From assembly GCF_028389875.1 (NCBI RefSeq), contig NC_084665.1, positions 3,224,001-3,288,000 of the forward strand: DNA of 64,000 bases, given 5' to 3'. Made by a program: the position numbers and the translations under genes. The notes under the pieces are model-generated. The model did no database searches. It saw only the letters and a program-made list of their open reading frames with translations, and was not told the origin of the DNA. Shown here piece after piece: positions 1-52,074 of the stretch (its first letter is position 1; the number at the start of each line of letters is the position of its first letter). The stretch comes from Rhea pennata (taxonomy: Eukaryota > Chordata > Aves > Rheiformes > Rheidae).

Positions 1-3000
1 AACAGAAAAGAGGTTATAAGACTCCTAAAGAGTCACTCAGTCTACTCCCTCACTCCAAAAAGGATCAGTTCTACTCAAAGCAGTCGCTTGCTTGCTTCAT
101 CTCACCAAAGCATGGCAAAGCGCAACGGCTCACGCTTCCTGAGCCTGCCTTTGGTGGCGCAGAGCTGAGCTGAAGGCTGCCTGAGGCCACACACCAAACC
201 GGGCTAGCTCCTTTCTCACTGAACAGTGATTTTTCTTAGGAGATGACAAATGCATGGAACTATTTTAAAAGTTGAATAAAGCTATACCCAGGAGGCAGAG
301 ATAGCAAGACATCCAAATCTCACAACCAGTGATGATCCTGTTTACACTAGTCCAAGTACACCCTCTAAATGCTGACCTCAAAATGTTCAGATGGAACAAG
401 GCATGGAAGTCTTCGCCTTCAAAGGCCTTCTAAATATTGGCCTTGAACTGTTAGGCTGGAGCAAGGCATTGGAGCCTTCATCTCGAAAGGCCCAGCACAC
501 AAAAGGCTACCTGTCCATCACGTCATGAACGGTACTCTACTCTCCAGCAGCCTGCTTCATTTGATTTGATCCAGAAGCAAACTGTTGGGGGTATTCTGCT
601 CTACCTCTTCTAACTCAAAGACAAACAATTAGGAATAAGGGCCCTAAAAAGGCAAAGGAAAGACAACTAATCTAAAACCTGCAGATTTTCATAAAGAAAA
701 GGACAGAAAAAGAAAGGGTTTTTTGAGAATGTTTACAAATGTGCAAGATGCATTTTTAATTCCTCAGAGCGTATGATACCTTATTTTTTAAAGAGATATC
801 ACCAACAGCAATGGGAGGCAAAGGTGTCCCAATAGAAGAAAAAACTCAAATGAGCATTGACCAGATGTTAGCACACTCATTTAAAAAATAAAGAAAAAAA
901 AGAAAAAAAAGTTAGTGTTTTGAAAGAAATTCAAGTTGTTCTAACCACAAGAAAATATTGCCAGCTACTGTAATTTACTTGTTGTAGATGAGCTTCTCAG
1001 GTTGGTTTAGCAGAAGTGGCCCAAATGCCCGTGCTGAGAAGCCACCTCTAGGACCTTTTCTTTTGGCGGCGGCATCGGCTCATGGAGACCTCGTGCTGTG
1101 GCTTAGAACACCCTCATCTTCAGCAACATCCTTTCCCTGCAACACCTCTGTTCACAGCAAACTCTCCACACAATCCCAAGCTCTTCTTAGAGGCTTTCTG
1201 ACCCCTTTCAGCCCCCAAGTAAGCTGTTGCCTACAAGGCATCTTCTTTTGGCTGGGGTAAGGGCTTCAGGCAGTGCCACTCCATGAACGCAGATGAGGTC
1301 TGAAACTTCTTTTAAGCTCCCAAACTCCCCACTCCAGGTGACGTCATGACCGAGCTCCCCTCTTACAGCCTAGACCCTCACTTAAGACTGCTTCGGCGCC
1401 TCTTCAGATTAATATTAAATGATTAAATGTTAACTTAAAATGATCAGCAGCAAGCAGGAGGTCACCTAGCAAGCCATTTACAGGAATTCGGCACTCACCT
1501 CTCCAAGAGGTATGACTTCAAGAGCAGGAGGGGGTGCCTTGGTAAACTGGGGTTTTTCAGAGCTTCAGTAGCAAGCTCTGGCTACTGAGACCTTAATAAC
1601 ATCAGCTCAATTTATGGAAGAGAAAATGATCTTGGGTAGGCCCTGCAAGAATCAAGATCCTGGTGCAGCAAGAAAGGAAAATGAGGCAATGGTACTTGGG
1701 ATTAGGGGAACATAAAGCCACTGAACCAGCAGAAGCAACGGAGCAGCCTGCAGGCATGATACAGGCCTTTGGCAAGAAAACAGGTCTGCAAAAAGCAGAG
1801 CAAATGATGCAAGGCAGGGAGAGGTTTGCCCAAGCATTTACATACCCTGAAGAACAGGGCTATGCTAGCTACATCTCACTTCCCTCCTGTGAGCATCCTC
1901 CCCTTTCTCCTCCGGTCCTCATCCTCCCAACCTCCGCCTAAGCTGACTCCCTTGCAAGAAAATAACAACACAGCTCATCTAATTAAAACACTCTGAGTAT
2001 CAGCACCTTCCTCAAAGGAGAGGAGTTTGAAACTTTAGTCTCATATAAACTTATATTCTAATTCTGCAAAACCTATTTGTCACAGATTGGGAAACAGGAA
2101 TGAACTTAATATTCAGCAATACAGTACTGATTTATTTAAGATGTATACTGACAGCAGAGTGTAAGCAACAGTACTCAATACTTAGGTAAACTGGTATTAG
2201 CATTAACTCTATGCAACTACACTAACCTGAATGCCATGTCTGAGGAGGAAAGAAGCAGATGCTTTGTTATTTTAAGTATTTAGCAAACAATGAATAATTA
2301 CACCCCAGACAGTTGACTTTGGGGACAGAAAAACAGGCTTGGGGATTGGGATTAAGGTTGTTAATTGGCTCTGAATGCAGCTTGTGCAACAGCAGCTTTG
2401 TTTATGCCAGAACTTTTGCAGTATGAAACACTTGTTTGAAATCTAAGAATATGTTTTCTCCAGAATTTCCCAGCAGTATTTTCTAGCTGACACTTATCAA
2501 ATCAAATATCACCCACACTAGACTGATGTCAAGCTTGGCACCAAGATACTGCTGTAGGGCAGCATGCTAATAAGTACACTTGCTCCACTGTTTACTGAAA
2601 TCAAGTTTTCCACTTATTTCACAGCTGACAGCTGTTTTATATTAAAGGCACAACCTCCTCGCTAGCCCACGAGCTAGGGAAACACAAGGCTATCTGCAAG
2701 TGAAAGAGGAAAAAAACAGAACATAAATGAGAAAGACTTAAACAGGACCAGAAGTACAAAACAGGAGCTTGAGATCAGCCGAGCCGTTTTTTTTTTATTG
2801 AGGCAGAACAACTTCTCCCTCCCATACTCTTTAGAGGGGAGGAACAGTAGGCTGCAGAAGTGTTGCTTCAAGAGCAAAATCAGTTCAGAAATATCATACT
2901 TCAGTTTCTACCTGCAGTTTAATAGAGCTGCTGACTGAATGCGTGCCATAATTGAAAAGCATACAATACAGCCAAGCGTACATACAATACGGTCCCTTCT

Positions 3001-3561
3001 CTGGTGCCGACACTTAAACTCGCTGCAACCATGCTGTAAGCCTGCCAGGCTTGCATGCTGTGTTAACCCTGCAGCAACAACAGGAATTCATTGAGATTTT
3101 ATTACTATGGACGCGCATGTATGAACAGGTCCATGTTATCGAGCTGCACAGCTTTGCAAGCATGAAACCTTTCCACAAAACCATTGCAAGAATTAGGGAG
3201 ATAGCCACCAATACGCAACTTGAGAATTATCACTACTGGCAGGCGCTGGCTGTCTTCTAAGCACTCAAGCAGAAGTCCCATTTGTTTACTGTAGACCTTT
3301 CTCCTTTCAAATGCGTGAAGACGGTTTTCTTATCTATTTCCAACTTCAGCAGCTCTGCCTTTTCTGGTAGGCATCAGAAGCCATTCCTCTTTGAAAGCCT
3401 AACTAAAAGGGGGGGGGGAAGCTTTGTATTAGCCAGGATACTACCACCTTTTAGATGCAGAACACATCACTAGTAAACCATTTGGATTACAATGAACGAA
3501 CAGTTCCCTTTTAGGGGCATACAAACAAGAGCATTGAACAATGCCAAAACATTACATATGC

Positions 3562-3601
3562 TGACCGTCAGCTGATTGCAGTTGCATTTAGCTGGCGGTC
3601 A
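3562..3601. repeat. Small inverted repeat, 12-bp arms
   Basis: Arms at 3562-3573 and 3590-3601 are reverse complements at 11 of 12 positions around a 16-base loop. No function is suggested by the surroundings, which are intronic. Confidence 0.5.
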
Positions 3602-4136
3602 CCAATGCCCCCTGCAATTGTGACCTGCTTAAAAGAGGCTTAACGAACAGCGCACAGCCCATAAAGGCACAGCGCAAATTAAAGAACAGATGTACCAATA
3701 GATACAGAGCAAGGGGTCGTTCCAGAAAGATTAATCCATTCCTGCTTTCATCTATGCTTTTATTCAAGGATTCTGGCTTTAGGTATCAGCTTGTTGAAGA
3801 CGTAACTCCTAAGTCAAGCACAGGGCTTGAAGCATTAAGCTGACAATTAAAACCAGAGCCTTTGCTCACACTGCAAAGATCTAAGAGCCATGCCAAAACA
3901 AGCGCACTCAAGGAAGCCGAACACCAGGTGCTGGAGTTCCTACTTGGCTGCTGTGTGGAAAACTGGACATTTTCTAGCCCTGCACATCAATCTGACATGA
4001 AGTTCAAAGCATATGTGGTCCCTACTCTGGTACCTGAAGGGGGAAAAAAAGACACTTTACTACAGAGACAATGCAGAACTATTGTAAATTGAAAGAAAAG
4101 GTTAGTAACTGCTTTACTCCTGGCTTTGCAAGGACT

Positions 4137-4375
4137 ATCACAGAATCACAGAACCGGTGAGGTTGGAAGGGACCTCTGGAGATCATCTAGCCCACCCTCC
4201 TGCTCAAACAGGGTCACCTACAGCACGTTGCACAGGATCACGTCCAGGCGGCTTTTGAGCATCTCCAGAGAAGACGACTCCACAACCTCCCTGGGCAACC
4301 TGTTCCAGTGCTGTCACTCTCACAGTGAAGAAGTTCTTCCTTATATTCAGGTGGAACTTCCTGTGTTTCAGGACT
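4137..4375 (-). mobile_element. CR1 LINE 3' fragment, minus orientation
   Basis: On the plus strand the segment begins with the reverse complement of the CR1 tail (TCACAGAATCACAGAA). It continues as the reverse complement of the conserved avian CR1 3' region, including GGAAGGGACCTCTGGAGATC (4167-4186), the block ending near TCCAGGCGGCTTTTGAGCAT and the AAGAAGTTCTTCCTTATATT block. The element is therefore inserted in minus orientation, truncated at its 5' end as is usual for CR1, and carries no intact reverse transcriptase. This is the main clue that the genome is avian; turtles and crocodiles also carry CR1 but with more diverged copies. The right-hand boundary is approximate. Confidence 0.92.
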
Positions 4376-7300
4376 ATGGAACAAGTATTTCCAACAACTG
4401 TGTCCCATTCAGAGTTTTCATATTCAGCAGCATCAAATTTATATTTTCAGCTTTGTGCTTGCTTCCTAAGGCTGCTCTGAAACCAATCACAACTCCACAA
4501 AAAGCAAGGCATGGCCACTAGACCGCTTTAGGGGAGAAAGAGACAGACTTCGCTCCCTGGGGATGCCAAGTAAAAATCCACTCAAGCATCTTCCACACAT
4601 GTGCTTTCACCCACAAGCACAGGATGTTGCAAGCTGCAAGCACTGGCTTCGAAACTTCATTTACATCACTCAGTTGTGTAGGCATCTGTTTTGGAGAAAT
4701 CACCTCAGGCAAAGGCCAGCAAATAGCACAGCAATCTCTAGACAGTATAAACGCATTTACTGTTCTCTGCTCTGAGCTTGAACGTATCCCACTGAAAAGT
4801 GAAATTTTCTTCGAAGGTTTTTTTTTTTTTTCCCCCTCAGTTATAGCACAAGTCCTTTATTCTGCACACCTCTAGTGACAGGAAGAGGTCAGGTTCCACA
4901 CAACCTCATTTCAATAGTATTCAACAGCAGCCTCTTCTGCAGGAAGAATTAAGCTGCATTTTCAGCTGGTCAGTCCTGATTTGAATGCTATTACTCAAGT
5001 TCAGAACAACAGAAGAGATATTACAGCAAAGTAGGGTATTTGAGGTTTCAAATATTTGTATTTGCTCTGCTTGACAGACAAAAAAAAAGAAGTGTATTAC
5101 AACTGAAAGAGAAAGGCCCACAGTTTGACCTCCAGATCAGTTCTCTCCAGAGAAGCCTGGAAGAAATACCAATTCTTGCTATTCAAGCATCACTCCTAGT
5201 TAAACAGGAGGAAGGTAACTGAAAAACACCTCTTCTTCTTCCCAACTGTGATAGGACAACTCCAGGCTTGAAAGGAGTTAGTATAGGAATACTATATTGT
5301 TATGTGGTTAGAACAGTTTTGCATCTATTCGTATATGGAAGTTACTTGCCGAAAAAGCAAGGCTGGTCGTTCCAGAGGAAAAAAAAATTAATAAATCCCA
5401 CAGATTAAAGTACTTACACAATGCAATTATATATGCCCTCCTTTGGAAGAGGTTTTGCTTCAGGTATTTGCTAGCTTCAGGGGGGGGGGAAAAAGTCAGC
5501 GCCTGAGTTTTTCCCCATGCTCTTCTTTCAATTTCTAAAATTCTCTTTCTGAGATTTGATAGGTTGTTTTATACAAGATTGGAGAGGGCAGCTGTGGAAC
5601 CTGAAAATAAACATTTGAAAATACTTAATTTTCTTGGTCTAATCTTTTCTATTGCTGTAGTGCACAGTAAGACTTCTTACATTACTTTGCAGGAAAATAA
5701 ATCTAGGTTAAACAAATAGTTTAATTTGAAAAGTAAACACAGCCATCGTTCCTGTTAGCTCAGTTCAATAATCATAGACTTAAATGATCAAGGCACATAA
5801 AGGCTAATATTAGAAAACTCTTCTCGCAAATTTAAATTGCCTTCATTAAAGAAGGGACAGATTTCCAAAGCTCAGTGTTACGTTCCTTTACCAACACTTG
5901 ACTGCTTTGAGACAGAAAGAAATATGCCAGCAAGGCAAAAGTGCAAAGGCCTGATGATAATTTTATTTCGAGGTATGGAGCTCACACAAGGCCTGGGTGA
6001 AAGGACACACTGACAGCCTGCAGGGTGACTAAGAGTGATTTCACACATTATCTACGTTTCAGCCCCTACAGTCACAACCTTTACACTCTCCCTAATTATT
6101 CTGCCTTGCCTCCAGCTCTGTTTAACCTATGTTCTTGTTGAACTCTTCACCAGTTGATGCAGCTCCCCGAACTGCCCTGTTCATTACCTCGTGAACCCTC
6201 TGCTCCCCCCCACCCCGGTTTTACCAGCAGTAACTGTGCATCTACCATCCCGCTGAGACAAAATTACTTACACTGATCCAAGAAACAGTCTCAAGAGAAT
6301 CTCCCAGTTGTTTCTCTCTCCATTAACAGCTACTCTCAAGACCTGTCACTGAGCTAGTTTTCAATACAGCTAATATGTGTTCCATTAACAGTGCAAGCCC
6401 TTTTAATAAGGGGATGCAGTGCAAAGTCAAGTGCTTTGCAGAAACAATTTTACCACTGATGCTTTCATCAGTCTGGTCATAGTCTTGATAAAACAGTCAT
6501 ATTTTCCACAGAGAGCCCACTTTTTCACAGGGCAATCTACTTTCATTGACACATATTTAGCTGCTAAAGTTTCTTCCATTTACTCTTACCATTAAAATTG
6601 ACTGTCATCCCAAATTGACTTTTATCATTAGAATTGCACAGATGCCACTGCAGGCTTGAATTTAGAGTCTCCTAAGTCCCCTGTTATCCTTTTAAAACAG
6701 CAGAAAGCACATTCTTATAATCCTCCCGTAGTACTGATTCAACCACGGCCAGATAGTATTCTCACCTTACAGCCCTACTCAGGGAGTCTGCCTTGCTTAT
6801 AATCACTTGCTCTTGATGCCAAAAGCTGTCCACTACTGTAACACCAGTGGTCTGATATTTACAGGACAGTGATGGGTTCCAGACTGCATTACCTACTGAG
6901 CTTTCAGAACACAGAGTTTTCTAGGGGAACTGCAGTGGAAACCTGTTCACTAATTTCACATCCTGATACGTTTACCATAATAACCTGACCTGCTTTCTAG
7001 GACTAGAAGACTAAAGCAAATTAGTTGTAGCCTCCTAAAAGGACTAGCATACATGGTGCCTTTCAAACAAAACTGGATGCAGTAGGCAAGACTCTTCATC
7101 CATGGCAGGAATCCTGCTTAGAAGGTGTAGCAGGCCTCTTGCAGGTATCATAGCAGCAGATTCTGGAGATGAAATGCCACCATAGTTAGTTTTCATTAAA
7201 ATGACATCATGCTGATTCCACCAAAGAGAAATACAAATTACTGCATCCCGGAGGAAACCTATGCATTTGCACCTATGTCCTGTGACTTATTTTGCACAGA

Positions 7301-7713
7301 ACTCAATTTGAAGCAAACCAAGCTGCTTAGGCATCAACGTGCCATTTATAACAGGAAAGCAAGCCACCTTCAAAAATGAACTTGTCGTAACTAGGTCACA
7401 GATACTCTGTGAAAGCAAAACCAGCTTGGAAATAGAACAAGGGTACAGAAGATATTGCATCACTGAGAAGATCCTCGTCCCCACAAAGACATCTTCCTTC
7501 CACTCGTGGCTGGAAAGTACACCTTGATCCCAAGAGTTCCCCAGAACTGCCCACATCAGGAAGTTTAGATACAGTGAAACAAGCACAAGTAGAAGATGAC
7601 TTCATAGGAATTAAACAGTAGCAACTATTAATAACAATGCAGTAATTAATCATTCAAGCTTAAGGCATCAAAGCAGAGCAACTGAATCCATGGGCCTGTA
7701 GGATATCAGAAGT

Positions 7714-8010
7714 ATGACATTGCAACGAAACAAGGAGTTCAAGGAGACACAAAAATCAGTTACAGGGAGCGAATTGTCTTCAGAATCCATAGGAAGTGTA
7801 CTCAAAGCCCTCCCTGAGAAATACAGAGAGCTAGAGACAACTGCTCAGGGAGTGCAGGATGCCATAGCACAGAGCAGATGCAGCAGAAAAATTCTTCGTT
7901 CTATTACAGAAATTACAGAGAAGCTCATAGGAAAATTGGGTCTAAAGAAAGAAACTTTAGACCACCAAGAAATCTGCAAGAGGATGTTAGAAGTCTCAAG
8001 AGATGCCTGA
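7714..8010 (+). other. Unassigned 98-codon ORF followed by a short A-run
   Basis: An ATG-started frame of 98 codons encodes a hydrophilic, helix-prone peptide rich in Glu, Lys, Ser and Thr (for example ALPEKYRELE and ITEKLIGKLG). The stop at 8008-8010 is followed about 20 bases later by a run of 13 A residues. The A-run raises the possibility of a small retroposed fragment. I do not recognise the protein and see no splice context supporting an exon. A chance ORF in an AT-rich intron remains the default. Confidence 0.15.
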
Positions 8011-8555
8011 AACAGAGTAAACCACACCTAAAAAAAAAAAAATTAAATTAACAACATGGCAAAAGACGACATGCTTGAACAGTAACGCACTGATGCATAG
8101 AAGTATTGCCAGGTATGCATCAATAAGATGCCCTCACAAATTATTGAGGCTTAAAAATTCACCTAATTTGGACATTGCAGGCAGTCTTGCTATTTGAGCT
8201 AAATGAATTCTATATCTTTAAGAGAAGGAGCGTGTGTTTCGGGGGAGGAAGGTAGAGGAACATGATAAAAGAAATACAGTGGCTCCAATGGCTAATTAAA
8301 CTGGGAAGATAATGCAGAGACCTAACATCTGATCACCAAAACTAAGTTACAAGTAGAAGTAACAGTAGTTCAGGGACACTCACCTAGGCATAAGCTGTCC
8401 AAACAACTGAGAATACACAAGACAGACCAGAATTTAGACACAGCCACTAAGTTCCCATTCATAAAACAAAAAGAGCAAACAGAAAGATTACATGTATACA
8501 CATGTGGAAGTCATTACACAATCCCATTTCAACAGATCGTAGCAGGGGAAAATGT

Positions 8556-8601
8556 TTTATATATATATATAACATATAAAATATATATATATATATATAT
8601 A
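8556..8601. repeat. (AT)n microsatellite
   Basis: Two runs of alternating A and T are separated by a short interruption (AACATATAAA) within the presumed ABHD12 intron. Confidence 0.95.
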
Positions 8602-11600
8602 AAACTGTGCATCCTCTTGGAAAGCTGTTAAAAAAATAGAACAAGTTTTCACATTCAGATGAGAATGAGAAAGTGATTAAATCTATAGTTATTGTGGGTG
8701 AAAGCACTGGCCAATGAATGGAAACTTTCACAGTTCCTTCATGAACTTTGCTTAGGTAATAATGAGGAACTGGAATAGCTGAGGCTACCCAGCAGGCAGG
8801 TGGAATCAGCAAAGAAAAAAAGTACATAGAAGCCTGCATGGCTGATACAACATCTATATACAAGCAGCACTTCCTTGTAGAGCACTAGCAAAGTAACTGG
8901 TTCAACCCGAAGACAGCAACTGAAGAGACAACGGCGCAAAAACCTCACATGGAAAAAAATTCTTAAGGAAGGTGTGGAAGAAAGCTTGCAGGAGAGGAAT
9001 TGATAAATTTGTCATTTCTGCTACAGTGACTAGACTGGAATAGTCCTAAAAGGCAGTGCAAATGGTGCTAGACAGGATAAGAGCAGGAAGGGATAGGTTA
9101 GGCCTAGAGAGACAAGGAAAGACAGATAGAACTGAACAAGTTTCCTGGCAGCGGAGGGAATTCTGCTCAAATCCAAAGAAACACCTGGATACTGGGGCAG
9201 TGGGATAACAAGGGACACCCCAAGTTGCATTTCACGGGCCTGGGCACACTTGGTGACCCAGCCAAATTCAAACACATCTGCAGGGAAGATGCAATCAGGA
9301 AGCTCTGACAGGCTGTTGTCTCTGGTCTGTAGCATCTCATTGTATTTTCATAAGATACCCAGAATAAGGTACCATGAGAAGCCTTCTGCCTTTGAAGGGA
9401 AACACTTGAAAAAGCTGCATGTGACTAGCAAGAAGGCAAATGTGGGTAATTACAGTTAACAGCATTATAACACCTTCATTTCTAGCTTGTGGGATACATG
9501 GGTTTGATGGCCCAGGGAAGGCTGTCAGAAAAAAAAAAGGGGGAAAGAAAAAGAAAAGAAAGAAAAAAACCACCTTGCAGGGACCTGTGCCAGGAATAAG
9601 GGGTTGCTAACAGCTAAGACAGTGAAGGTAACGAAGAGACAGGCCACAGGACAGCAGGCTTCTGCAGGGAGACAACTGTCTAGATGTACACTTACACACC
9701 TTGTGTTTGCAGCTCTTCACAGTAAGGAGAAAGACAGAAATGAGTTTTATCCTTACTCTCCTGCAAACACTTGTTTGCAAATGAATGGCAAAATTAATAC
9801 TCAGTTCTTCAGGTCTAAGGTCTGACTATGAATTGGGGCTAATAAAGCCTAGATAAGAACCAAGGCACAGAACAGAACGGTAGTAATTATGAGTCTGTTT
9901 GCCACAAGGACCAGGGTTCAGCAGAAGTGAAAGGGGCAAATCTGCTTTGACAGCAAAGCTAGTGTTAAGCTTACTGTTTTCTTTATTCTCTGTGCTCCTA
10001 CATAAAGGTCTTCTATATCCAAGTGTGCATAAATGCATTTCTTCAAAACATCCCAGCCACTTACCACAAAAAATGAGTTACAGCAACAACCACAGAACCA
10101 CTCTTCAAACATTAATCTGCTATGACCATTCTGCACAAAATGCACTGCTACCTTGATAACCATCTAGCACCTAGTTTAAACACTGTCAAGTGGAAAATGC
10201 ATCGTAACTCAAATGTTACAGGAATACCCATCTACACAAAACACATACCAGGAAATCCATTTTTGCACCACATGCTGCTGTAATACTGCAATATTGAATT
10301 TAACAGTTTCAGGTAAAATATCTGTGAACAATTTGGTTTTCAGAGGAACTGAGAGTTTCAAAGCAATCACTGGTAAACTTCTTAGATAACTACTACTTTT
10401 TTTTTTTTTTTCTTGCTACCTATGGAAGAAAGGCAGAAATACCTCTATTGTTTCTTTGTTTGTAAACCACTTAAGCCACAGAGATATCCATCTCCATTAT
10501 ACATGTACATACGCACATGCAGAGTTTATGTAACAGAGCAGTTCAAGCGCACAGTCACCTCTTCAGAATGAATTTCAGTTCTCGAATGAGCGAGCCCTGG
10601 GTGATGACATGACTGAACCAGAACTAAGGGACAGATACAATGCTGTTAAACTTAAATAATAATAAATAAAAGTATATACTGCTGGAAGCATAAGCTCCTG
10701 CTGTAAGTCAGCAGATATTCTTCAAACATTGCTTACACTTGCAGTTACGTGCTATTTGACTTTTGCTGAGGAATTGCATGCGGACACAAAAAGCCCTGCT
10801 GGGGAAGGCACACACAAGCTCTGCTACTACTTTAAATCTCTTGCCATCACCACAAAAAACATTGTCACTGCCTCTACAGCCCCCCCTCTCCCCTCCCCAG
10901 CACTCCCATACCATGCAGTCAGCCATGCGATCAGTCCTGGGTCACAGAACCACAGCCACTTCAGGCTATTGTAGAGCGGGCCTACCCCTCTGCCCCCCCC
11001 CACTTATTTTTTTAAACTAGTGGTCTATATCATTTCCTAAAAGAGATGGAAAACCAAATACTGAAATCAAACATGTGCTCTTTTCCCAAGCCTGCAGAGA
11101 AAGTCACCATCACCAGCAAGGAACGCTGACAGCCCCACTTCCCCCAAATGGGGAAATCACAGCCACCACAAGTGCTGACTTTTAACTATTTCACCAACAA
11201 GCATGTTGCTAGAAATAGTTTGCTTTCAGGGTACTAATTCTCATGTCCAGATATTACACCCCCTCCACCATTCCAGTAACCTTTGCAGCTGTCAGAGTTT
11301 TTGCTTCCCTCCAGTTTCTGGAACCTGGAGCGTAAGAGTAATATAACAGATGGATGGTTTAACAGATTCAAGTACTAATTTGATATCCAGTGGATATCCA
11401 AGCTCCGGCACAGGAAGCTGCTTGCCACAGATTCCTGCAAGGTTGTCCCAAGGGAGCACATGCTTGCCCTTTTCATATTCTTCCTGAAGTACAGCAGTTA
11501 TCCATGTCAAAGGCAGGATACAAGGTCCAAATGGAAGAACACGGGATGCCTGGAGATACAGGTGCTGCCCAGAACCTCCCATGGCACCTCTCATTCAGGC

Positions 11601-11902
11601 ACACTAAGATTCACACTCTAGCATTATATTTGTTATCCTTCAGAAAAGGATACCCAGAGGGTACCAGCAGGCCCAGGTGACTTGCCTGCAGGCCACTGTC
11701 GCATGGCTCACAGATGAGGAGCAAGCAAAGGAAGCCCACTTAAAAGGCTGTAAGCAAGACACACCACAATTCCCACCAGCCCAGGGAAGTAGAAAAAACA
11801 GAGAAGTACATAAGCAAGGGTTCTGCCTTGTTTTTCAGTTGATAAACACCATTTTGGCACAGGACGGTCCATAGGGTTTGGGATGTGAGTGTTCTTTAGG
11901 GT

Positions 11903-11907
<5 letters not shown>

Positions 11908-11934
<27 letters not shown>
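11908..11934. repeat. T27 homopolymer
   Basis: A run of 27 T residues. Seen from the minus strand it is a 27-A tract, as left by a retroposon tail, but no recognisable element precedes it on that strand. Confidence 0.9.
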
Positions 11935-12246
11935 AAGTGTAGAAAAGGGAAAGCAGCCTCCGAACGCATAAAGCATTTCTTAACGTCAAGACTTTGAGAA
12001 GCACCGCTATACGGTACACAGTGCCTGACAGAAAGCCCAAGACACATGCAGGACTTGAGGGACTTCTGAAACAGGCTTCAAAGGCTCAACATGGAAGAGA
12101 GCGAGGAAAAAAAAAAAATTGCCTGCTAACTGTTCTGTAAGAGCCCCGAGCCACGCTCAGAAGGCCGGAGCGGTCAGTAACACGCCGCTTGGACACCCCT
12201 GGTCTGAGGGATTACCTAGGGCGGCGAAAGGACCGAAGCCATCGGA

Positions 12247-12289
12247 TTTTTTTTTTTTTTTTTTTTTTTTTTGGGGGGGGGGGGGGGGG
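12247..12289. repeat. T26-G17 homopolymer junction
   Basis: A run of 26 T is followed directly by a run of 17 G at the edge of the ABHD12 CpG island. The length of such tracts is hard to sequence, so the exact counts may be unreliable. The G-run could form a G-quadruplex. Confidence 0.9.
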
Positions 12290-13240
12290 TGAGGGAGGAT
12301 GGAGAGGCAGAGCGCCCCGTGCCGCTCCCCGAGCACCGAAAGGCCTATCGCGACGCGCCCGGGCCGCCGCCACAGCCCGGGGCGCTGCCTGCGGGCCGCG
12401 ACACCGCCCGCCTCGGCGGGCGACAGCATCTCCTCGGACACCCCAGGCGAACAGGGACACGGGTGAAGAACTAAATAAGGCGCAGGAGCCCCCTGCGAGC
12501 CGCTGCTCCCGAGCCGCCCCCGCGGGCCGCCCAGAGGGGACGGGGACGGGGGTCGCGGCGGCCCTGCGAGGGCGGCGACGCCGCGCCACGGGCGCGGAGC
12601 GCCGCGCGCAGCCCCCCCGCCCCCGCCCCGGCCCCGGCCCGCGCTGACCTGCCCAGCGGTCGCTTCATCCCCGCGGCGGTGGCGGCGGCGGCAGCGGGGG
12701 GCAGGCGCAGGCTGTGCCTCAGGCTGCAGCCCTTGTCGGGCGGCGCCGGCGCGGCGGCGCCGGCGCCGGCGCGCTCATGCTCCACGGTGACGGACTCGTT
12801 GCGCTTCCTCATGCCGGGGCGAGCGGAGCCGCAGACGGCGAGAGCGGAGCGGAGCCGCGCGCGCACACCCGCCGCTGCCGCCGCCACCGCCACCGCCCGC
12901 CCCGCGCCCCGCCCCCGCCGGCCGGCACCCACCGGAAAGGGCTCCGGACAAAACAAAGCCACCGCTTGCCCGCACTCAAGATGGACGCCACCCTTCTCCC
13001 CCGCCTCCGTGCCTTGACATAGCGCGCCGCGGCGCCATATTTATAACGGGCAAAAGCGCCAGCCGCCATTTTGTTGGCTACCTGAGGGGAGGCCTGGAAG
13101 GCGCAGCAGCGGTGGAGAGGGGGATGCGCGGCCGGCGCACGCAGGCTCCGGCCTCCGGGTTTTCCTTGGGCAGGGTGACACGAGTGGGCAACCCTGCGGG
13201 CTTTGGGGGCTGCGGAGAGCCCTCGTTTCTCCTGGCGCTG
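12290..13240 (-). promoter_or_regulatory. ABHD12: ABHD12 CpG-island promoter
   Basis: A dense CpG, GC-rich block surrounds ABHD12 exon 1. On the minus strand it carries a TATA-box match TATAAATA (13038-13045 as TATTTATA on plus) and a YY1-like AAAATGGCGGC (13062-13072) just upstream of it. A transcription start near 13,010 would give a 5' UTR of about 200 bases before the ATG at 12,812. TATA plus a CpG island is a less common combination. Motif matches are read directly; the start site is inferred. Confidence 0.7.
12649..12812 (-). CDS. ABHD12: ABHD12 coding exon 1 (partial gene)
   Basis: Minus-strand exon from ATG at 12,812 to a GT donor (GGGCAG|GTCAGC) after 12,649. It encodes 54 codons plus two bases. 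The peptide starts MRKRNESVTVEHER and ends GMKRPLG(R). This matches the start of vertebrate ABHD12, which opens with MRKR..VxxEHER and has GMKRxLGRR just before the transmembrane helix encoded by exon 2. The middle is a low-complexity Ala/Pro segment. ABHD12 is a membrane-anchored serine hydrolase of the endoplasmic reticulum that degrades lysophosphatidylserine; the anchor and catalytic domain are encoded by exons outside the window. In humans ABHD12 has GINS1 head-to-head beside it; no GINS1 start is seen here. Confidence 0.85.
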
Positions 13241-14008
13241 CTGTGGCCACACGCAAGGAGAAGCGTAGCCCAGCCCTGGCTGGACCCTGGCGGCACAGGC
13301 CGGGGGAGTCGTGCGATTCCCAGGGAATCTGGGATGGATACTCCTTAGTGTTATTAAAAACGAAAAAAAAAAAGATGACTCGAAATGTTGTGTTGGAAGC
13401 TCAACAGAGTGCAGGAAGCACTTGGAAGTGGGTGTCTGCTTGCTGCTGGGGGGGGGGAAAGGGGGTGAAGCTGGCGCTGTTTAACAGCCTCTGCGTGAAG
13501 AAATGCAGAAACAGGGCTGGTTCTGCAAGGCTGATGGGGCAGCTGCAATCCAAGGAGCGCTAGGTGGTTTGCACATCCATGGATGGGCCCTGGGACTTTG
13601 CCAGGACTGGAGCACATGCTCAAGCATGGGGAAACATGCAGGTATGCTACAAGGATGCAGAGACAAAGCTAGCGGGAACTGTGCCTGTCAAAGCCGGCAG
13701 TGAGGAAGGGGGTGAAGTGCTGAGCTGACACATACAATCATAGTCTGGGTCCCTGAACAGCCTGAGGTGATCACCTTCCACTGTATTTTGTCCTTCAAAC
13801 CTCTCCCTGAAGCAGAAAGCAACCTTTTCAAAGTTTAGGATATGGTTCCGCCTGCCCTTTTGCTCTATAGCCTTTTGGGAAGGTTACAAAAACATTTCAG
13901 AAAATACATCCTCATCTGTTTGCCTCCACAGGCACACACTAGCAAGGCTTATGTTTCTGTACAGCTTCCTTAGCAGAGAGAGAATTCTGCACTGGAAACA
14001 AGTGGAGG

Positions 14009-14048
14009 GAAATGGGGCAGAATAAATAGAAATGGGGCAGAATAAATA
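14009..14048. repeat. Perfect 20-bp tandem duplication
   Basis: The 20-base unit GAAATGGGGCAGAATAAATA occurs twice head to tail without mismatch, suggesting a recent slippage event. No coding context. Confidence 0.95.
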
Positions 14049-17000
14049 AAACATTGGTTCCAATTTGGCAAAGGCTGGAGATTTCCATATCCATACCACT
14101 AGGGAACAAGACAGCACTGCACTAGAGAAAGCAGCTGTGGTCGTGCACTGTGTCTCCTGCTGCTGCTGTCACATGTAGAACATCAAATTGATCTACCAGG
14201 GTATCTCCTGTGTTCTTCAAAAGTAAAAAAGTGGAGAAATTATTAAAAAACATGTATTTCTTTCTTCAGATAGTAGTGATCTCAGCTCTCCTGCATCTAT
14301 TTCTTCTCTATCTTGCTATACTTGATGCAACATGGAGATTCAAAATAAATGTAGCATTATGAATTAATTCCAGGAGCAAAGAAAAGACGGTGGACCAAAA
14401 AGGAAAGTGCTGTTGTTAAAATACGGTCCTTGACTATCTCAGCAATTATGGAGAGCTGGCAGAAGGCACAGTCTGGCATGCCATGAAGGGTGTACTCCTA
14501 CCATCTGCACGCACCAAATCCGTTACCTGAACAATGCAAAGCAGCCTGGGGAATGTGCTGCCACAGGTTTTCGTAACAGCTAGTAACCCAGTGTGGTTAT
14601 GCAAAGAGAACGAGTACAGGAAGAACGGGAAAGTCCAGTCAGAGTAAAAGCTGGGAAAGGAAATGAGATTCCTTAGCTCAAGGCATAAATGAAGATTATG
14701 GTAGAGCAAAAGTGGAAACTGTCCCTGTGGGCAAGGATACCTTCTTTAGGGTTTCTGCACATCTGAAATGATCTGGAAGTGTCCTTGCCCATAGCCTGAT
14801 GAACTGCAACAGTGAGAGTCTCCTTCCCACCATGTATTCTCCACAGGCATCTGCACCTGAACAGACTTGCCTTGCCTAGAGATGAGGAAGGTGGAAAGCA
14901 GAGGACAGAAGCTGAGCACCGATCCTAAGTAAAAAGTTATCAAGGTAAACTTGGGAGATGTGTTTGGTTATGGATGAAGCTCTAACAGTTCTCCATGAAA
15001 GACAGAACCAAGAGAAGGAAACATTGAAGGAACCTCAAAGAGCTAGGAGTCAGTCCTGGTAAGAAAACCATTGGGAGGTAAGACTCAGGAGACCACAGCG
15101 GTATTCAGAGCAATCAAAAAAGGCAAAGAGAGCAATCACCTCTGAGGAGGTGCTTGAAAAGGGGGCAAAAGCCAACAAGGGTGCACTGAGGGCAAAGCAG
15201 AGAGAGACTGTGCACCCTGCTGATGAAGGTGGGAAATGCAGAGACCTGCTGGGAAGACAGATACCCACAGCCTTGTATTCCTCAAACTGCTCCTCTCTGA
15301 CAGGACAAGGCAGGAAAACAGATGCTACAAGCAAATAATGACTTTTTTTCCTACATATCAATCACGATAGAAATTCTTTAGCTCAAGTTGGTTAAGCATG
15401 TTTGTGCTTGATGGACAGTGCCAGGCTGTCCCGTGGGTTGAGCGCTCCTTCAGCTCTGCCTTTGCAGCATAGCACCCAGCTCCCATTGCAAGTCCCTGAG
15501 AAACAACCCCCAGCACCATCACCACCTCTGTCATTGGAATCTTAGACACTTCAGGAATTGCTATGCCTCCAGCAGGCACCAACAGATCCTCTCTGGGCAC
15601 TCCCAAAAAGATGTGCTAGGCACAACTGACTTCTACAAACTGAGTTGTAAGGTACCAAAGTCAGATCGTGGTTTAGATTTGTTCAGTTGCCGCCTTGGAA
15701 TACTTCAAAGAGATTTGCTTCAGTTTCTGTAGCCTCATCCAGTCCTTGTATTGGGGGTGAGCTCTTTGCGGAGTGTTTCTGATTCTTCATTGCAAAGACA
15801 TAACACTGACTGTGCTGACAAATGATCCTTGTGAGGAGATGAGAGGAAAACTGCAGTGAGAACATAGCTCTCTCCTGAGCTAGTGTTCCCAAACTATGCT
15901 ACTGTCCATACAAACCCAAACCCAGACTAAACATCCAATAACCCTGAGTCTCTGGTATGGAGTATCTAGGGATCACAGTAGTTCCCCAGGCTGACAGGTA
16001 CAGACAGAAAGCAGTAGCAGATACAGTCAGATACTTCACACTAGCTGGAGAGAGCTAATAAACAGAAAAGTTGTGCACCCAAGCACAGAACAGAGGAGTC
16101 CTCTTTTCCAAACAGTCCCCTTCACAGGAGTCCTTGGGGGAGCTCAATGCAACTGGGGATGTCCTAGCACAATTGACATCCACCTCTCAGAGTTAATAAG
16201 GCTGGCAGAGGAATCAAGACTCACCTGGCTGTCCCCAAGTTTCACTGCGTAGAGGAAACTGTGGAGAGCTAAGACTGAGGTAGCTGTGGAGCCATCCTTC
16301 CACACTGACTTCCTGAAGGCAGCAAAATCAGGGTTACTGAGGGTAAAACTAGCCCTGAAAAAGTTAATCACACAGTGCTCCAGACAGCTCCAGAGGAGTC
16401 ACTTGCTGATATTCTCCTGGCCACTACCTAGTTTCCCTAGTGAACAGTAAATACAGAGGTGGATGAAGACATAGGAGTTACACAAAGTCTCTACATGTGG
16501 TGGTACTCCAGTCTGCTACACAGGGGGATGCCTCTCCAGCAATGCTGGTTCATTTATTCACTCTCCTGATACCCGCTGGGCTGTAGTTCACCGATTTCTG
16601 AGAGCCTTGGGGTGAAATGAGAAATACTTTTTAAATTACAGATGCCAAACTAGATCCTTTCTAACACAGGGGCCAACTCAAACATCGGTCTTTTCTGGAA
16701 CTAGCTTGGAGAGACTGAAGTCTATATTATATTTGACCAGGTTTCCCTGGGTTTGGAGGTAGAGTTGAATGAATATCAATCCTAGACATGCATGAGGTCT
16801 CATCTGATGTTGCATCTCTCAGTATCAAGGGATAAAAGTTGACATATGTCCCACCCGTGCTCTCCTCTTAGCTTTAAGAGCATTTCTTAGACAGGTTTGG
16901 GGGCAAATTCTGTGCTGCTCCACTGTGGCCATCCGCATCAGCAAAGAAGGAGATATGGGTGCTCTGAGGTAGCAAACATTAACATAGACAGGCTAGGAAA

Positions 17001-17510
17001 GGCTGTTATCCAGAAGGGAAGACTAAATACATAGGTTTCCCTAATACCCTCTTCTGAATCAGAGGGGAGGAAACACTGCCCTCCCTGTCCTCCCACAAAG
17101 GGCCACAAGACTCGGTGCCCAAACATTTAAGTATTTATAAGAGAATGCACTAAAAAAAATTTGCATAACTTTCCCATCCTTGGAAGCTAAGGACAGAAAA
17201 GCATTCCCGAACCACAGCTTTGCGTAAGAGCGGTCAAACATTTCACCCTAAGGGCACTGCAATTTGGAGCCTCTTCAGTAGAGCCAAGAGCTCTTTACAG
17301 ACACAACACATACTCCAGTTGTGCTACAGACAAGAGAGCCTGAGCCTGCCATAAACAAAGCCCTTGGAACAATGTTAATTTGAAAAGTATATAACTTGAC
17401 AGAGTTCCTATAAAAATAGCATTATATGACTTGCTGAGAGATTTACACTTTCCAGATGAGAGTTTGGTGCCTGGTGATTTCTCGTTTCCAAATATCCATG
17501 TACTCCATTG

Positions 17511-17695
17511 CTACACTTGGGATTTTCTCCGCTGATTTTCCAGGTGAAAGGGCCAATTAGCTAGAATTAAGCTGAGCACCTCTAAGTCTCTATGCTTAAG
17601 CTCAGCGAGTACCCGGAGGTACTGGTCCGCCAGGATCCTTGTGAAGTCCATGATTCTAATTCCTCGAAGCAAAGCGTTACCTTTGAGACTGGCAC
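17511..17695 (-). pseudogene. Possible decayed family III CoA-transferase exon (SUGCT-like)
   Basis: Reading the minus strand from an AG acceptor (TTGCACATAG|GTGCC, exon start 17,695), the open frame contains LLRGIRIMDFTRILA. This resembles the N-terminal strand-loop of family III (CaiB/BaiF) CoA-transferases such as SUGCT, where L-x-G-[IV]-R-[IV]-[LM]-D-x-T-R-[IV]-L-A-G-P is typical. The next residues read DQYLRVLAEL in place of the expected GPF/GPY and LGDLGAEVIK block, so the match fades, as after small insertions or deletions. The frame stops at 17,511. The acceptor phase (2) fits the donor phase of the GC-rich exon at 19,304-19,427. Family membership rests on one motif read by eye. It could be a pseudogene, a diverged gene or chance. 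Confidence 0.3.
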
Positions 17696-19303
17696 CTATG
17701 TGCAAACCAGTCAACAGACTTGCTCAGGGACATGATCTGCAGTGTTACACAGGAAATAGCTGCCTCTTCGTGGGCACCTTTAGATTACTTGTTTACTATT
17801 CAGTCTGGCTTTGTACACTTTCTTACTTAGAGCCCCCCCCCCCAAAGCACATGTATTGAGCAGCGTGGTCTTCAGTTCTCTGCCTCTGTCTAGAATCAGG
17901 CTTGTTCAGTGAAAATTGCAGCTAGAGCATTTTTTCTTCAGCGATTTTGACTGAAAGTAGCGAGATGCTTAGAGCAAAACAGCAGGTATCTCAATGCACT
18001 GATGTTACTAACAATAATCTATTCAGTTCTGTCATAAAAAGTTACTTCCAGGAATGACATATCATTGCTCCTCTTAATAACCTACAATAATGAACAAACT
18101 TAATGTTTCAGTAACGTGCCATCCGGCTGGCCCCTGATAGGCAATGCACTCTGATTAGGAATCTCCTTCCATTTTCAGGACTTCCTCTGCTGTTCATTGG
18201 GCAGAAAGCAATATCCATCCACATAGAAAGAAGAAGTGAAATGGGATGGAGGGGGAGTTTATTGCTGCCAGGCACCTAAATCCATTCTCCAAAGCAGGGG
18301 AAATATCTCCCAGGGTTTGAGTTCACTGGCTGGGTCCAAATAAGAATTCATTAAAAATAAACTTGAAGCACAGTGATCAAAGGGAAAGTATTCATCCATT
18401 TTGCAGGCTACTTTTTTTTCACTTTTGACTTTTAGAAAAATCACACCGTTAACACTTCGTATATTTTTTTTCTTTTTTTTTGGCATAATTCACAGGTCAC
18501 AGCCGCTCATGTTTGCACAGGCATGTGCATTTGCAAGAAATCAGGTCTGAAGAGAACGAATGAGGATACTGACTTTTTCAGCGTTAGTGAAGGAAGACTG
18601 CAGATAGTCATCTGATTCATGTGCGTAAATCAAGCCTATCAGATGCACAACTGATCATAAATCAGTTATACTGCCTTGCAGAGATGTGTGCAATTAAGAG
18701 GTTCACCTAATACATGTTGGCAGCAGTTTCCATGTCAAAGAAGATGATCAAATGTAGCTGCTTGTTATCTACCTTTCCTGTTTTTAACCAATTTCTCTTT
18801 TAAGGTGTAAGCTCCATTTGAAAGAGGGAGGTAGAGAAGAAAATTAAAGTGGGTCAGAGATACGAGTACCTCATACTGTCAAGACAAGGGGAAGACTGGT
18901 TCCACCACAGACAAGGGCATTGCACTGGACCTCAAGTAAGGCTGGGAAGCAGTTCACTGCCAAGCGCGCTTTCAGAGGAAAAAGCAAGCAATTAGCTGGG
19001 CAGGATCACTCGTGTTGTATCCATAAATCTCATTAAAAATATTAGTGTTAGCTTTTGTTCCTCTTCTATAAAGTTTCTGGTCAAGTAGCAGGAAATCCCA
19101 TTCCCTCCATATCGAAACCCAACTTCTCAGCTGCAAATCTGACACTGCTTTAGGGATACAAACAGCGTTATTCCGAGTTTTCTGGTCTTCCTGCTCAATA
19201 AAATGGTGGCTCTGTGCTCTTACACAGTAACATTTAGGCCCCTTGAGCTGCTTTGTGCAACTGATTATAAAACCAGTAAAGATAAAACTAGCATAGGACT
19301 TAC

Positions 19304-19427
19304 CCCCACTCCGTGGGAACCAGGCACGGGGGCTGAGGGGCCCCGCCCCCAGGCCCTGCGGCCCCGCCCACTCCCGGGCTCTCTGGCGAGAAATCGCCCC
19401 TCCCTTCCGGAATCCCCTTAGCGTCAT
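19304..19427 (-). CDS. Candidate first coding exon with mitochondrial-presequence-like peptide
   Basis: On the minus strand a TATAAAA (19,488-19,494 as TTTTATA on plus) lies about 60 bases before an ATG at 19,427. The frame runs 41 codons plus one base to a strong donor G|GTAAGT (exon end 19,304). The peptide begins MTLRGFRKGGAISRQRAREW and is rich in Arg with no acidic residue before position 19, as expected for a mitochondrial targeting sequence. SUGCT-type enzymes carry such a presequence. Splicing to the acceptor at 17,695 keeps frame. I cannot identify the gene with certainty. Alternatives are a first exon of an unrelated gene or non-coding RNA. Confidence 0.35.
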
Positions 19428-19560
19428 ACAGCCGTCACCGGAGTCCAAGGGGACGTTTCCCCCTTAAGAGAAAGGTGTGACCCGGAGTTTTATAGGCGTG
19501 GCCCTTTTAAGAGCCACCACGTGGCCGGGGTGGGGCTCTCGGTCGAAGCCAGTGGCGGGG
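19428..19560 (-). promoter_or_regulatory. TATA-containing GC-rich promoter for the candidate exon
   Basis: TATAAAA on the minus strand at 19,494-19,488, followed by GC-rich sequence with several GGGCGG/CCCGCCC boxes inside the exon (19,340-19,375), predicts a start near 19,460. Another reading is that this is the distal part of the TSSK4-like 3' flank with no promoter role. Confidence 0.4.
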
Positions 19561-19735: not shown

Positions 19736-19920
19736 GAAAAGGGAGGGGAATTTTGCATGTTTCAGGTTGGCCCACAATAAACGGGGAGGGCCCCTCTGGC
19801 AGAGCCCCCCCCTTTACAGGGGTGTCCCCAAGGAAAGAGGGAGCCAAGGGAGGGCTCAAGGCTTTTATTAGAGGTCCTCTAAAGCCGGGGGAGCGGGTCC
19901 CCAAAACTGCAGCGGGAGGA
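19736..19920. other. 3' flank / probable 3' UTR of the TSSK4-like gene
   Basis: This GC-rich stretch follows the TAA stop on the minus strand. Reading the minus strand, an AATAAA signal is present about 55 bases after the stop (TTTATT at 19,863-19,868 on plus), which would give a very short 3' UTR, as seen for many testis-expressed genes. Confidence 0.5.
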
Positions 19921-20061
19921 TTATGTCTCAGGGGCCTCTGTGTCAGAGGGCAGGTCCCCCAGGGGGCCAGGGGGCAGGAAGCGAGAGACCCAGGGGGTCT
20001 GCAGGAGCTCCCGGGCTGAGAGGCGCTGTGAGGCCGGGCACAGCAGGCGCAGGATCACATC
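19921..20061 (-). CDS. TSSK4-like exon 4 (residues 265-310, stop TAA)
   Basis: Starts after CCCCAG with [20 protein letters not shown], the usual C-lobe end of TSSK kinases. A Pro/Gly/Glu-rich tail of about 20 residues precedes TAA at 19,921-19,923. Confidence 0.78.
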   Translation of the reverse strand, partial: DVILRLLCPASQRLSARELLQTPWVSRFLPPGPLGDLPSDTEAPET

Positions 20062-22033
20062 CTGGGGGACAGGGCAGTGGGGGAGGGCCTCGGGGCCTCT
20101 CCCGAGGCCTGAGAGGACCCCCGTCACCTGGGGAGCCCCATCAGCTGAGAGACCCCCACGCCCCTGGTGCCCCTAGCTGCCTCCAGGTGTCCCTTGGTTG
20201 TCCTCCAGCTACTGGCTGCCCATGTCCCTCAATATCTTCTAAGTCCACTACTCCTCACAGCCCCTATAGTGCCTTCCATCTCCCCCATGTGCCCCTAGAT
20301 GCCCCCAGCTCCCCTCCCGTGCCTTCCAGATGGCCCTCAACACCACCCCATGCCCCAAGCTCCCTTCAACGCCCTAGAGCTGCCCCCCATTCCCCTGCTG
20401 CCATCTGTCTTCTGCTGCCCCCAACGCCCTCTAATGCCCCTTGGTGCTCCCAGCTGCCCCCCCCAGTCCCACCTTGCAGTCCTGGGGCAGAGGCTGCTGT
20501 GAGGGGAAGATGGGAGGCTGCTGGATCTGCTGCAGGAGGCGCCTCATGTTGGTATCATCAAAGGGCAGGTGGCCCAGGAGCAAGGCATAGAGGATGACTC
20601 CGGCGCTCCAGGTGTCTGCCAGGAAGGGGTCATAGGCCTGAGCCTGCAGGATCCTGGGGCAGGCATAGGCGTAGGACCCGCAGAAGGTCCGGCTCAGCAA
20701 CCCCCTGGTGGGTGCCCCTGCAGATGTGGAAGCTTCCGGTGACTCCTTGTTGGCATCCTCCGGGGCCACCCGCTGGGGGAAGCCGAAGATGGAGATCTTC
20801 ACGTTGTCCTGGCAGTCCAGGAGGAGGTTCTCCAACTTCAGATCCCTAGGAGAAACATGGTGTGAGGATGTCTGCAGGGCAGATGCCAGCGTGGAGCGCA
20901 GATACAGGTGCATCAGGTCACATAGGAGGAATGGGGGCAAATAGAGGCTTTGGAGGTCAGACACAGGGTGTGTGGGAAAAGTAGGGGACACAGATGAGCT
21001 GTGGGACAGATAGGGAAGTTTTGAGGCAGTTGGGATCAGATAGGTGGTGCAGTGGCAGATGGGAGGCTGTGGGGCAGGTAGGGGAACTATGTGGCAAATA
21101 GAGGCTGTGGAGGTCAGGTGTGGACCATGTGGGCTCAGTGGGACAGATATGGGTATTATGAAGTAAATGGAGCTGTGGGAGGCAAGTAAGTGCTATGGGG
21201 CAGATAGTGGTAGAGGAGCAAACTGGCAGTAGGTAGAAGTCAGGGAGTGTGGAGGCACTTGGGGGGCCCAAGGGTCTTCCCCCTTGCCCATGAATGCCTT
21301 GCTGCCTGGGGGGGCTTCCTCCTGGTGCCACAGCAGGGACCCTGTCACCCTGGTGCTCACCCACCGGTGGACGATGGCCCTGCTGTGGAGGTAGGCCAGG
21401 CAGAGGACCAACTGGGAGAACCAGTGGCCTGCCAGGCTCTCAGGGCAGGGTCCCTGGCACTGCACCCGCTGCAGAACGTTCCCTGACGGGGCCAGCTCCA
21501 TGATGACGTAGTGCCGCGCCGTGGTCTCGATGGCCTGGTAGAAGGTGATGAGATGCTTGTGGTGCAGCCCCTTCAATACCTGCAGGCAGGGAGGGGTTAG
21601 CGGGGGACAGGCCTGTCCCAGAGAGCCCTCTCCCCCACCAGATTGCTGCTGCCCCCACAAAATGCTGCATCTCCTGCACCCAGTGCCCCAGCCTCACCCC
21701 TTGCTGCCCCACCAATGCCCACCATGCCCAATAGCACGTTGTGACGCCCCTGAGCCCCCTAACCCACCGGCTCCCTCCAAAGCCTCTCCAATGCCCCCTG
21801 CTCCCTGATGCTCCTCCGTGTCCCCCTGCCTGGATGTGATGGGGCAGGAGCTCTCTGAGATATTCCTCCGGTGCCTTTCTTTTGGAGATGACTTTGATGG
21901 CCACCTGGGCCCGCTGCTGGCAGGCCACCGCCTTGTACACCTTCCCATAGGTGCTGTGGCCCAGCATCTGCTCCAGTTGGTAGCCGAACTGCTCCAGCAC
22001 CACTGGCGTGGCTGGGGCGGCCGCCTCCGCCAT
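19921..22033 (-). CDS. TSSK4-like testis-specific serine kinase, probable pseudokinase (4 exons, 310 aa)
   Basis: Coding exons on the minus strand are 21830-22033, 21365-21579, 20473-20845 and 19921-20061 (933 nt with stop). The protein resembles TSSK4: [24 protein letters not shown], DTWSxGVILY and LPFDDTN are shared, and TSSK4 is also split into several exons while most TSSKs are not. It keeps the ATP-binding Lys47 (VAIK), HRD Asp141, activation-loop Thr193 and alpha-F Asp217. It has lost the alpha-C glutamate (His66 where TSSK4 has LPREI), the DFG aspartate (Ile159-Phe-Gly) and the APE glutamate (Cys-Pro-Arg204). The glycine loop is also weakened (GHSTYG). Intron 1 has a GC donor. The chosen ATG gives a 16-residue leader before the kinase domain; an in-frame ATG at 22,255 would add 74 residues. 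The frame is open throughout, so this is either a pseudokinase or an early-decaying gene. TSSK kinases act in spermatids. Confidence 0.8.
20062..20472. repeat. TSSK4-like intron 3: degenerate C-rich repeat
   Basis: The plus strand reads as loosely repeated C-rich words such as GCCCCCAGCTGCCCC and CCCTTGGTGCTCC. This is typical of expanded minisatellite-like introns in GC-rich bird DNA. No coding content. Confidence 0.6.
20473..20845 (-). CDS. TSSK4-like exon 3 (residues 140-264)
   Basis: Starts after TCCTAG and encodes the catalytic loop (R)DLKLEN, the altered DFG (Ile159 codon at 20,788-20,790), a long activation segment with Thr193 and [10 protein letters not shown], the altered APE (Arg204 codon at 20,653-20,655), the alpha-F Asp217 and LPFDDTN. 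The donor is AAG|GTGGGA. Confidence 0.82.
20930..21235. repeat. TSSK4-like intron 2: degenerate minisatellite
   Basis: Most of intron 2 (20,846-21,364) consists of loosely repeated plus-strand words like TGTGGGGCAGATAG and GAGGCTGTGGAGGTCAG. The copies are too diverged to fix a unit length by eye. Confidence 0.6.
21365..21579 (-). CDS. TSSK4-like exon 2 (residues 69-140)
   Basis: Starts after CTGCAG and encodes [18 protein letters not shown] through [10 protein letters not shown](R). It contains hinge-like [10 protein letters not shown] and the alpha-E helix. The donor CG|GTGGGT splits the HRD arginine codon. Confidence 0.8.
21830..22033 (-). CDS. TSSK4-like exon 1 (residues 1-68)
   Basis: Encodes the leader, the glycine-rich loop GHSTYG and VAIK with Lys47. 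It ends LLPHHIQ, with two histidines where TSSK4 has Arg-Glu. The donor is CAG|GCAGGG, a GC rather than GT donor; no GT is available nearby that keeps the homology. Confidence 0.78.
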
Positions 22034-22920
22034 GTGCGCGGGCGGCGAACCCGGCAGCGGCCACAGCAGGGCCTCAGGGGCTCCCCCGGTGGGGACCGGC
22101 CCCCCTTCTCCTCCCTCAGGCCGCAGCCCCCCGGGCTTCCCCCTGCCGGTGACATCACAGCCGTGGGGATTCCCCCCCGCTGGTGACATCACAGCCATGG
22201 GGGTTCCCCCCTCTGGTGACATCACAACCGTGGGGGTTCCCCCCGCTGGTGACATCACAATCCCCAAGTCTTCCCTGTCGCCCCCTCTCCCCCCCCCCTC
22301 CGCTGCCCTGGGGATGGGGGGGCAGCTGGTTTTAGGGGTGTTCCGAGCCCTGTGGAGGTTCCTCAGGGCAACGGCTCCATTTGAGAAGCTGCAGGGAAGC
22401 GCCTGCAGCAGGAGCCACCGCGAGACCCCGCCACAGAGGGAAAGTGACACTTATCCGCCCGCTATCGAGCAGGTGGATTTCACCCGCTCGCACTGCCCCG
22501 CGCTCGCTGCCCGGGATCAGAGGAACGGCTGAGACCGGCGGACACCTCCGCAGAGCGCCTGCTCAGGCCGGGTCACCCGGAGCTCGCTGCTAGGGGAGCG
22601 CGCCCAGGCGCCGCCGGAGTCGCGGCCGCCCCCGCCCGGCCGCGGGGAAGCGGCAGCCCTGCGGCGGGCGCGATACCCCGCCCCGGCCCCTCCCCCTCGG
22701 GGGGCGGGGCCGCCGCCTCTCGGCGCTCCACCGGCAGCTGGTGGCCAATGAGAAAAAAAACCCATCCGCCGCCCAATGAGCGGCGGCGGCGGAGGTTGTT
22801 GCTGGGCAGACATGCGCGCTGCGCCCAATGGGAGCGGGGCGCTGCGGCCGGGCCCGGGCGCAGGCGGCGGCGGCGGCGGCGGCGGGTGCGGCGCGGGGCG
22901 GCTGGGCCGCGGCGCTCACC
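22034..22920. promoter_or_regulatory. Divergent promoter region of TSSK4-like gene (-) and PPP2R5D (+)
   Basis: 887 bases separate the two start codons, which point away from each other. The kinase-proximal half holds the CRE-like tandem repeats. The PPP2R5D-proximal half is a CpG island that continues to about 23.48 kb. It has three CCAAT boxes in the same orientation (22,745-22,749; 22,773-22,777; 22,825-22,829), a pattern typical of NF-Y-driven TATA-less promoters, and GGC repeats at 22,780-22,793 and 22,864-22,885. The PPP2R5D start is probably between 22,830 and 22,900. Confidence 0.75.
22148..22270. repeat. Four ~33-bp tandem repeats each with a CRE-like TGACATCA
   Basis: Units begin GGTGACATCACA at 22,148, 22,182, 22,215 and 22,248 (spacings 34, 33, 33). 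Each contains TGACATCA, one base from the CRE TGACGTCA. They sit 115-235 bases upstream of the kinase ATG. Read on the minus strand, the upstream copies can also encode an 11-residue repeat (V-M-S-P-x-G-G-T-P-x-x) in the kinase frame, so a coding role cannot be excluded. Confidence 0.85.

Positions 22921-52074
<29,154 letters not shown>

Follow-up and report, generated by a model that had tools for sequence, protein, structure and literature searches.

The 64,000-nucleotide window of Rhea pennata DNA analysed here carries, on the minus strand at 22033-19921, a TSSK4-like kinase gene of four exons and 310 residues whose product is probably a pseudokinase, as judged from a complete reading frame in which residues of phosphate transfer are lost. 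The explanation we prefer, which we hold with about even confidence for a candidate known from a single genome, is that this TSSK4-type pseudokinase has been kept by selection acting on its fold and binding surfaces.

The gene model consists of exon 1 (21830..22033), with the ATG, the G-loop positions Gly25, Ser27 and Gly30, Lys47 and the alpha-C residue His66; exon 2 (21365..21579), whose 3' end lies within the HRD Arg codon, so that this codon is split between exons 2 and 3; exon 3 (20473..20845), with an intact HRDLKLEN, IFG for DFG, Thr193, CPR for APE and DTWSAG; and exon 4 (19921..20061), with Arg277 and the stop codon, all on the minus strand. Exon 3 also carries a long activation segment of the TSSK4 type, as compared with a provisional human TSSK4 sequence. 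The joined exons comprise 933 bases, 310 codons plus the stop, and no stop or frameshift interrupts the 310 codons. The G+C content by codon position was 0.65/0.42/0.84, compared to 0.57-0.66 across the three introns, which is a coding-like pattern. The splice acceptors are AG, and an AATAAA polyadenylation signal was read from the sequence at 19864..19869 (minus strand), approximately 50 bases 3' of the stop codon. An earlier sequence-only reading had described a frame open through four exons. This was borne out, and it depends on accepting intron 1 (21580..21829, minus strand, 250 bases) as a GC-AG intron.

The translation matched the PF00069 Pkinase profile at 178.5 bits, against a curated cut-off of 31.7 (E 2.3e-52), and covered the whole profile (1-263 of 263), so the match is not due to chance. 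Among the best 60 of the 2459 distinct sequences matched, the closest solved relatives were two TSSK6 entries, followed by SIK3, BRSK2 and MARK4, which places the protein in the TSSK family; the top TSSK6 match reached 172.6 bits. We take the TSSK6 entries 8iyj and 8otz to be mouse and bovine, respectively. A comparison alignment combined TSSK6 and SIK3 from the solved set with provisional sequences of human TSSK4, TSSK3 and TSSK2. The identity was 48% to the provisional human TSSK4 (307 aligned positions) versus 36-41% to the other four kinases, and 38 columns were shared exclusively with the provisional TSSK4 versus 5, 5, 6 and 12 for the others. These values, the long activation segment and the T-loop Thr make up the likeness to TSSK4, for which the human sequence was provisional. 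The label TSSK4-like in the sequence-only reading is thus supported by the top solved match to TSSK6 and by the 38 exclusive columns, with TSSK4, TSSK3 and TSSK2 all represented by provisional sequences.

In contrast to TSSK4, the gene described here lacks the alpha-C Glu, the DFG Asp, the APE Glu and the second G-loop Gly, and it adjoins PPP2R5D. Identity to TSSK6 (8iyj mouse, 8otz bovine) was 38%, and TSSK6 has a shorter activation segment with all four residues intact. TSSK6 is a component of the sperm doublet microtubules and is reported to be primarily enzymatic (PMC13066092). TSSK5 is described as having subdomain II insertions and no ATP-binding signature (PMC8042308). Identity with TSSK5 was rejected, as the gene here is without the subdomain II insertion and only one of its three G-loop glycines is replaced. 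A pattern scan of the bacterial/archaeal and viral contig collections gave 23 and 8 matches, none encoding a relative, and among the papers listed by literature searches on TSSKs in birds and reptiles and on testis pseudokinases, none was on a bird TSSK4 pseudokinase.

Three of the replaced residues had been recognized earlier: the alpha-C Glu is His66 (CAC, 21836..21838), the DFG Asp is Ile159 (ATC, 20788..20790) and the APE Glu is Arg204 (AGG, 20653..20655), all on the minus strand. Alignments to four solved kinases agreed with this claim, as Glu, Asp and Glu occupy these columns in the printed alignments of mouse TSSK6, bovine TSSK6, SIK3 and BRSK2. The codon positions given for His66 and Ile159 were correct, and the retention of Lys47, HRD Asp141, Thr193 and alpha-F Asp217 was confirmed in the translation. 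A further lesion was found at Ser27 (AGC, 21953..21955, minus strand), which stands at the second (middle) glycine of the GxGxxG G-loop and is the fourth lost among 12 classic catalytic residues. The residues retained are Lys47, His139-Arg140-Asp141, Lys143, Asn146, Phe160-Gly161, Thr193, Asp217, Gly222 and Arg277. In active kinases the residue at the position of Arg277 pairs with the APE Glu; with that Glu lost, Arg277 is without its usual partner. The residue before His66, His65, replaces an Arg found in all five reference kinases, three of which were provisional sequences.

By the genetic code, Ser27 requires a minimum of one base change, and His66, Ile159 and Arg204 require two each. It is therefore highly improbable that the catalytic codons are artefacts of sequencing or assembly, since such an error would have to introduce at least six base differences over three separate codons and keep the frame.

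A pseudokinase is defined by sequence as a kinase that has lost at least one among the VAIK Lys, the HRD Asp and the DFG Asp. Lys47 and Asp141 are kept here and the DFG Asp is Ile159, which places the protein in this sequence class, as had been proposed. Known pseudokinases such as ErbB3, STRAD, CASK and Tribbles have a kinase fold with catalytic residues lost, and in ErbB3, as in the gene here, the alpha-C Glu is replaced by His. None of the four is a TSSK, and to our knowledge none has the same set of replacements.

The sequence-only reading had left two fates for the gene, a retained non-catalytic role or very recent decay. Neutral decay was simulated from a canonical start with assumed rates. 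Of 12,500 neutral runs, 0 combined an open frame with the loss of at least three catalytic residues via two-base changes. Under 15 further settings, the joint frequency of the two-base loss pattern and an open frame was 0 to 0.001 without indels, and when an indel term was included the product was at most 2.9e-4. Four or more catalytic losses by any change together with an open frame were less rare, up to 0.03 without indels and approximately 0.005 with a moderate indel rate; the argument against neutral decay therefore rests on the two-base codons. Pure neutral decay was rejected as unlikely under the assumed rates.

Relative rates were compared between the kinase gene and the provisional human TSSK4 branch using four outgroups. 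Outside the 12 catalytic positions, the changes numbered 26/23, 27/28, 32/28 and 18/15 (kinase gene/TSSK4), and there was no clear rate excess over the provisional human TSSK4. With the 12 catalytic positions included, the relative-rate test against the provisional TSSK4 gave P values of 0.25-0.70. When a stricter outgroup consensus was applied (at least 3 of 4), the kinase gene had 16 changes versus 8 for TSSK4; 4 of the 16 were catalytic and one was His65. Very recent decay thus fits poorly with both the simulated frequencies and the rates.

The columns invariant in the five reference kinases, three of them provisional sequences, were kept at 49 of 55 positions. The six lost were the catalytic Ser27, His66, Ile159 and Arg204, the neighbouring His65 and one Leu to Val change. 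Catalytic positions were enriched among the lost invariant columns (P = 0.017, or P = 0.024 with BRSK2 added) when the three provisional references were used. With solved-structure references only, P was 0.70 with two and 0.39 with three, so the enrichment is dependent on the provisional sequences. Together, the simulation, the rates and the invariant columns speak for a fold that was long maintained after catalysis had gone more than for a gene that died recently, and a function is likely. Of the two fates, a retained non-catalytic role is the one that we would prefer.

A slower form of loss was also considered, in which catalysis was lost long ago, a weak folding constraint kept the frame, and the gene, now under relaxed selection, has no present function and is on its way out. 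We regard this as possible, at roughly half the confidence given to selection on the fold. The 310 codons without a stop or frameshift, the lack of a clear rate excess outside the catalytic positions (relative to the provisional TSSK4) and the rarity of the two-base lesions with an open frame under purely neutral decay all speak against it. Published observations also speak in its favour: duck testis germ cells are reported without TSSK4 in the testis atlas (PMC12419092), KinOrtho cluster 9, to which the TSSKs as a group are assigned, has a partial presence in reptiles and birds (PMC8449880), and the related TSSK5 is a unitary pseudogene in primates (PMC7401350).

Relaxed selection would also agree with the donor of intron 1, which is GC instead of GT and had been passed over in the sequence-only reading. 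With provisional weights, this donor scored 1.2, whereas the two remaining donors scored 6.3 and 8.0. When the second intron base was omitted, it scored highest of the three (6.1 versus 4.0 and 5.6, provisional weights). Functional GC-AG introns usually show such a strong score without the second intron base. Splicing of intron 1 may nevertheless suffer from the GC donor, and retention of its 250 bases would shift the frame. The best competing GT donor lies after 21698; its use would add 132 bases (21698-21829), equal to 44 residues, in frame and stop-free after Gln68.

The kinase gene lies head to head with PPP2R5D, an opposite-strand gene whose start is approximately 0.9 kb distant. The stretch that we take to be the first exon of PPP2R5D was recognized by eye, with no Pfam match there; three later pieces match B56, and the delta isoform was the best solved match. 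Past PPP2R5D is a minus-strand MEA1, matched at 27.6 bits versus a cut-off of 27, and beyond MEA1 are kelch motifs that presumably belong to a KLHDC3-like gene. Human PPP2R5D is located at 6p21.1. Human TSSK4 is at 14q12 (PMC7401350), so the gene order here differs from that in human and the gene could be a duplicate copy. In that case an intact TSSK4 would be present elsewhere in the genome, and the copy freed by duplication would have become a decoy or a decaying paralogue; we consider this rather unlikely, slightly more so than relaxed selection of a single gene. Such a copy would not be a retrocopy, since the introns are kept. Mouse TSSK4 has introns as well, as follows from the splice variants mentioned in PMC7401350.

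Under our preferred explanation of selection on the fold and binding surfaces, the protein would fold as a protein kinase and would be incapable of ordinary Mg-ATP phosphotransfer. The DFG Asp binds metal, and Mg-ATP transfer is not expected once this residue, the Lys-Glu bridge and the middle glycine are lost; the prediction rests on these three losses and on that of the APE Glu. Expression would most likely be in spermatids. The protein would act by binding, occupying the docking surfaces used by active TSSK4, with ODF2, CREM and HSP90 as candidate partners, and its putative role would be to serve as a scaffold or to compete with active TSSKs.

Published findings bear on this proposal. CREM is bound and phosphorylated by TSSK4 in vitro (PMC10454534), and TSSK4 has been linked to ODF2 and HSP90, with control of substrate access proposed for its inactive splice variants (PMC7401350). 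In flies, the K105M and T237A forms of the TSSK4 orthologue were present at lower levels and caused defects in motility and fertility, and human TSSK4 restored the fertility of mutant flies (PMC12059139); conserved kinase residues thus appear essential in the TSSK4 group. The defects of the fly mutants count against our preferred explanation, because the usefulness of a dead TSSK4 is not obvious from them, and so do the duck testis atlas and the KinOrtho clustering cited above.

A broader and more tentative reading, which we consider less probable than retention of this one gene, is that in birds or a bird clade the enzyme of the TSSK4 arm of spermiogenesis became a non-catalytic binder kept by selection and that other TSSKs took over phosphorylation. 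This would stand in contrast to flies, where the TSSK4 arm needs conserved kinase residues. A natural TSSK4 with replaced catalytic residues and no clear acceleration elsewhere would reveal surfaces that are important apart from catalysis and would signify that sperm development has changed in birds. TSSKs are under study as targets for male contraception (PMC7401350).

A 33-base tandem repeat of about four copies occupies 22133-22275, between the two divergent genes. It contains four copies of the CRE-like sequence GTGATGTCAC (22149..22258, minus strand), 116-225 bases 5' of the ATG. For the pattern GTGAYRTCAC, 0.1 chance matches are expected within the window; the GTGATGTCAC copies form one repeat family and are therefore not independent. 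GTGATGTCAC is GTGACGTCAC with one C-to-T change, and within GTGACGTCAC lies TGACGTCA, the CRE consensus that PMC10454534 gives for CREM. The GTGATGTCAC array could serve the kinase gene, PPP2R5D or neither. Between the GTGATGTCAC copies in 22133-22275 are three GGGGGAAYCCCC palindromes. These palindromes resemble what we take to be an NF-kB site. The exon 1 frame is open 5' of the ATG through the repeat (22034-22450) and contains more in-frame ATGs, so the N-terminus may be longer and include 11-residue repeats.

In the remainder of the window, a six-frame Pfam scan of 1-19499 gave DUF6132 as the sole match, below its cut-off, and searches with Rfam at gathering scores and for tRNAs returned no matches. 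The stretch at 12140-13480 is GC-rich and CpG-island-like, with no Pfam match in six frames. A fragment at 4140-4360, on which the avian label rests beside the sequence-only reading, is presumably an avian CR1 element. One of eight short CR1 strings matched, at 4161, a 26-base CR1 pattern had no match in the window, and a sequence search of the literature gave no match. At 42993-44759, a stop-free frame of 588 codons, rich in Leu and Ser, was observed within a strand-biased stretch; it probably reflects low-complexity DNA and not a gene.
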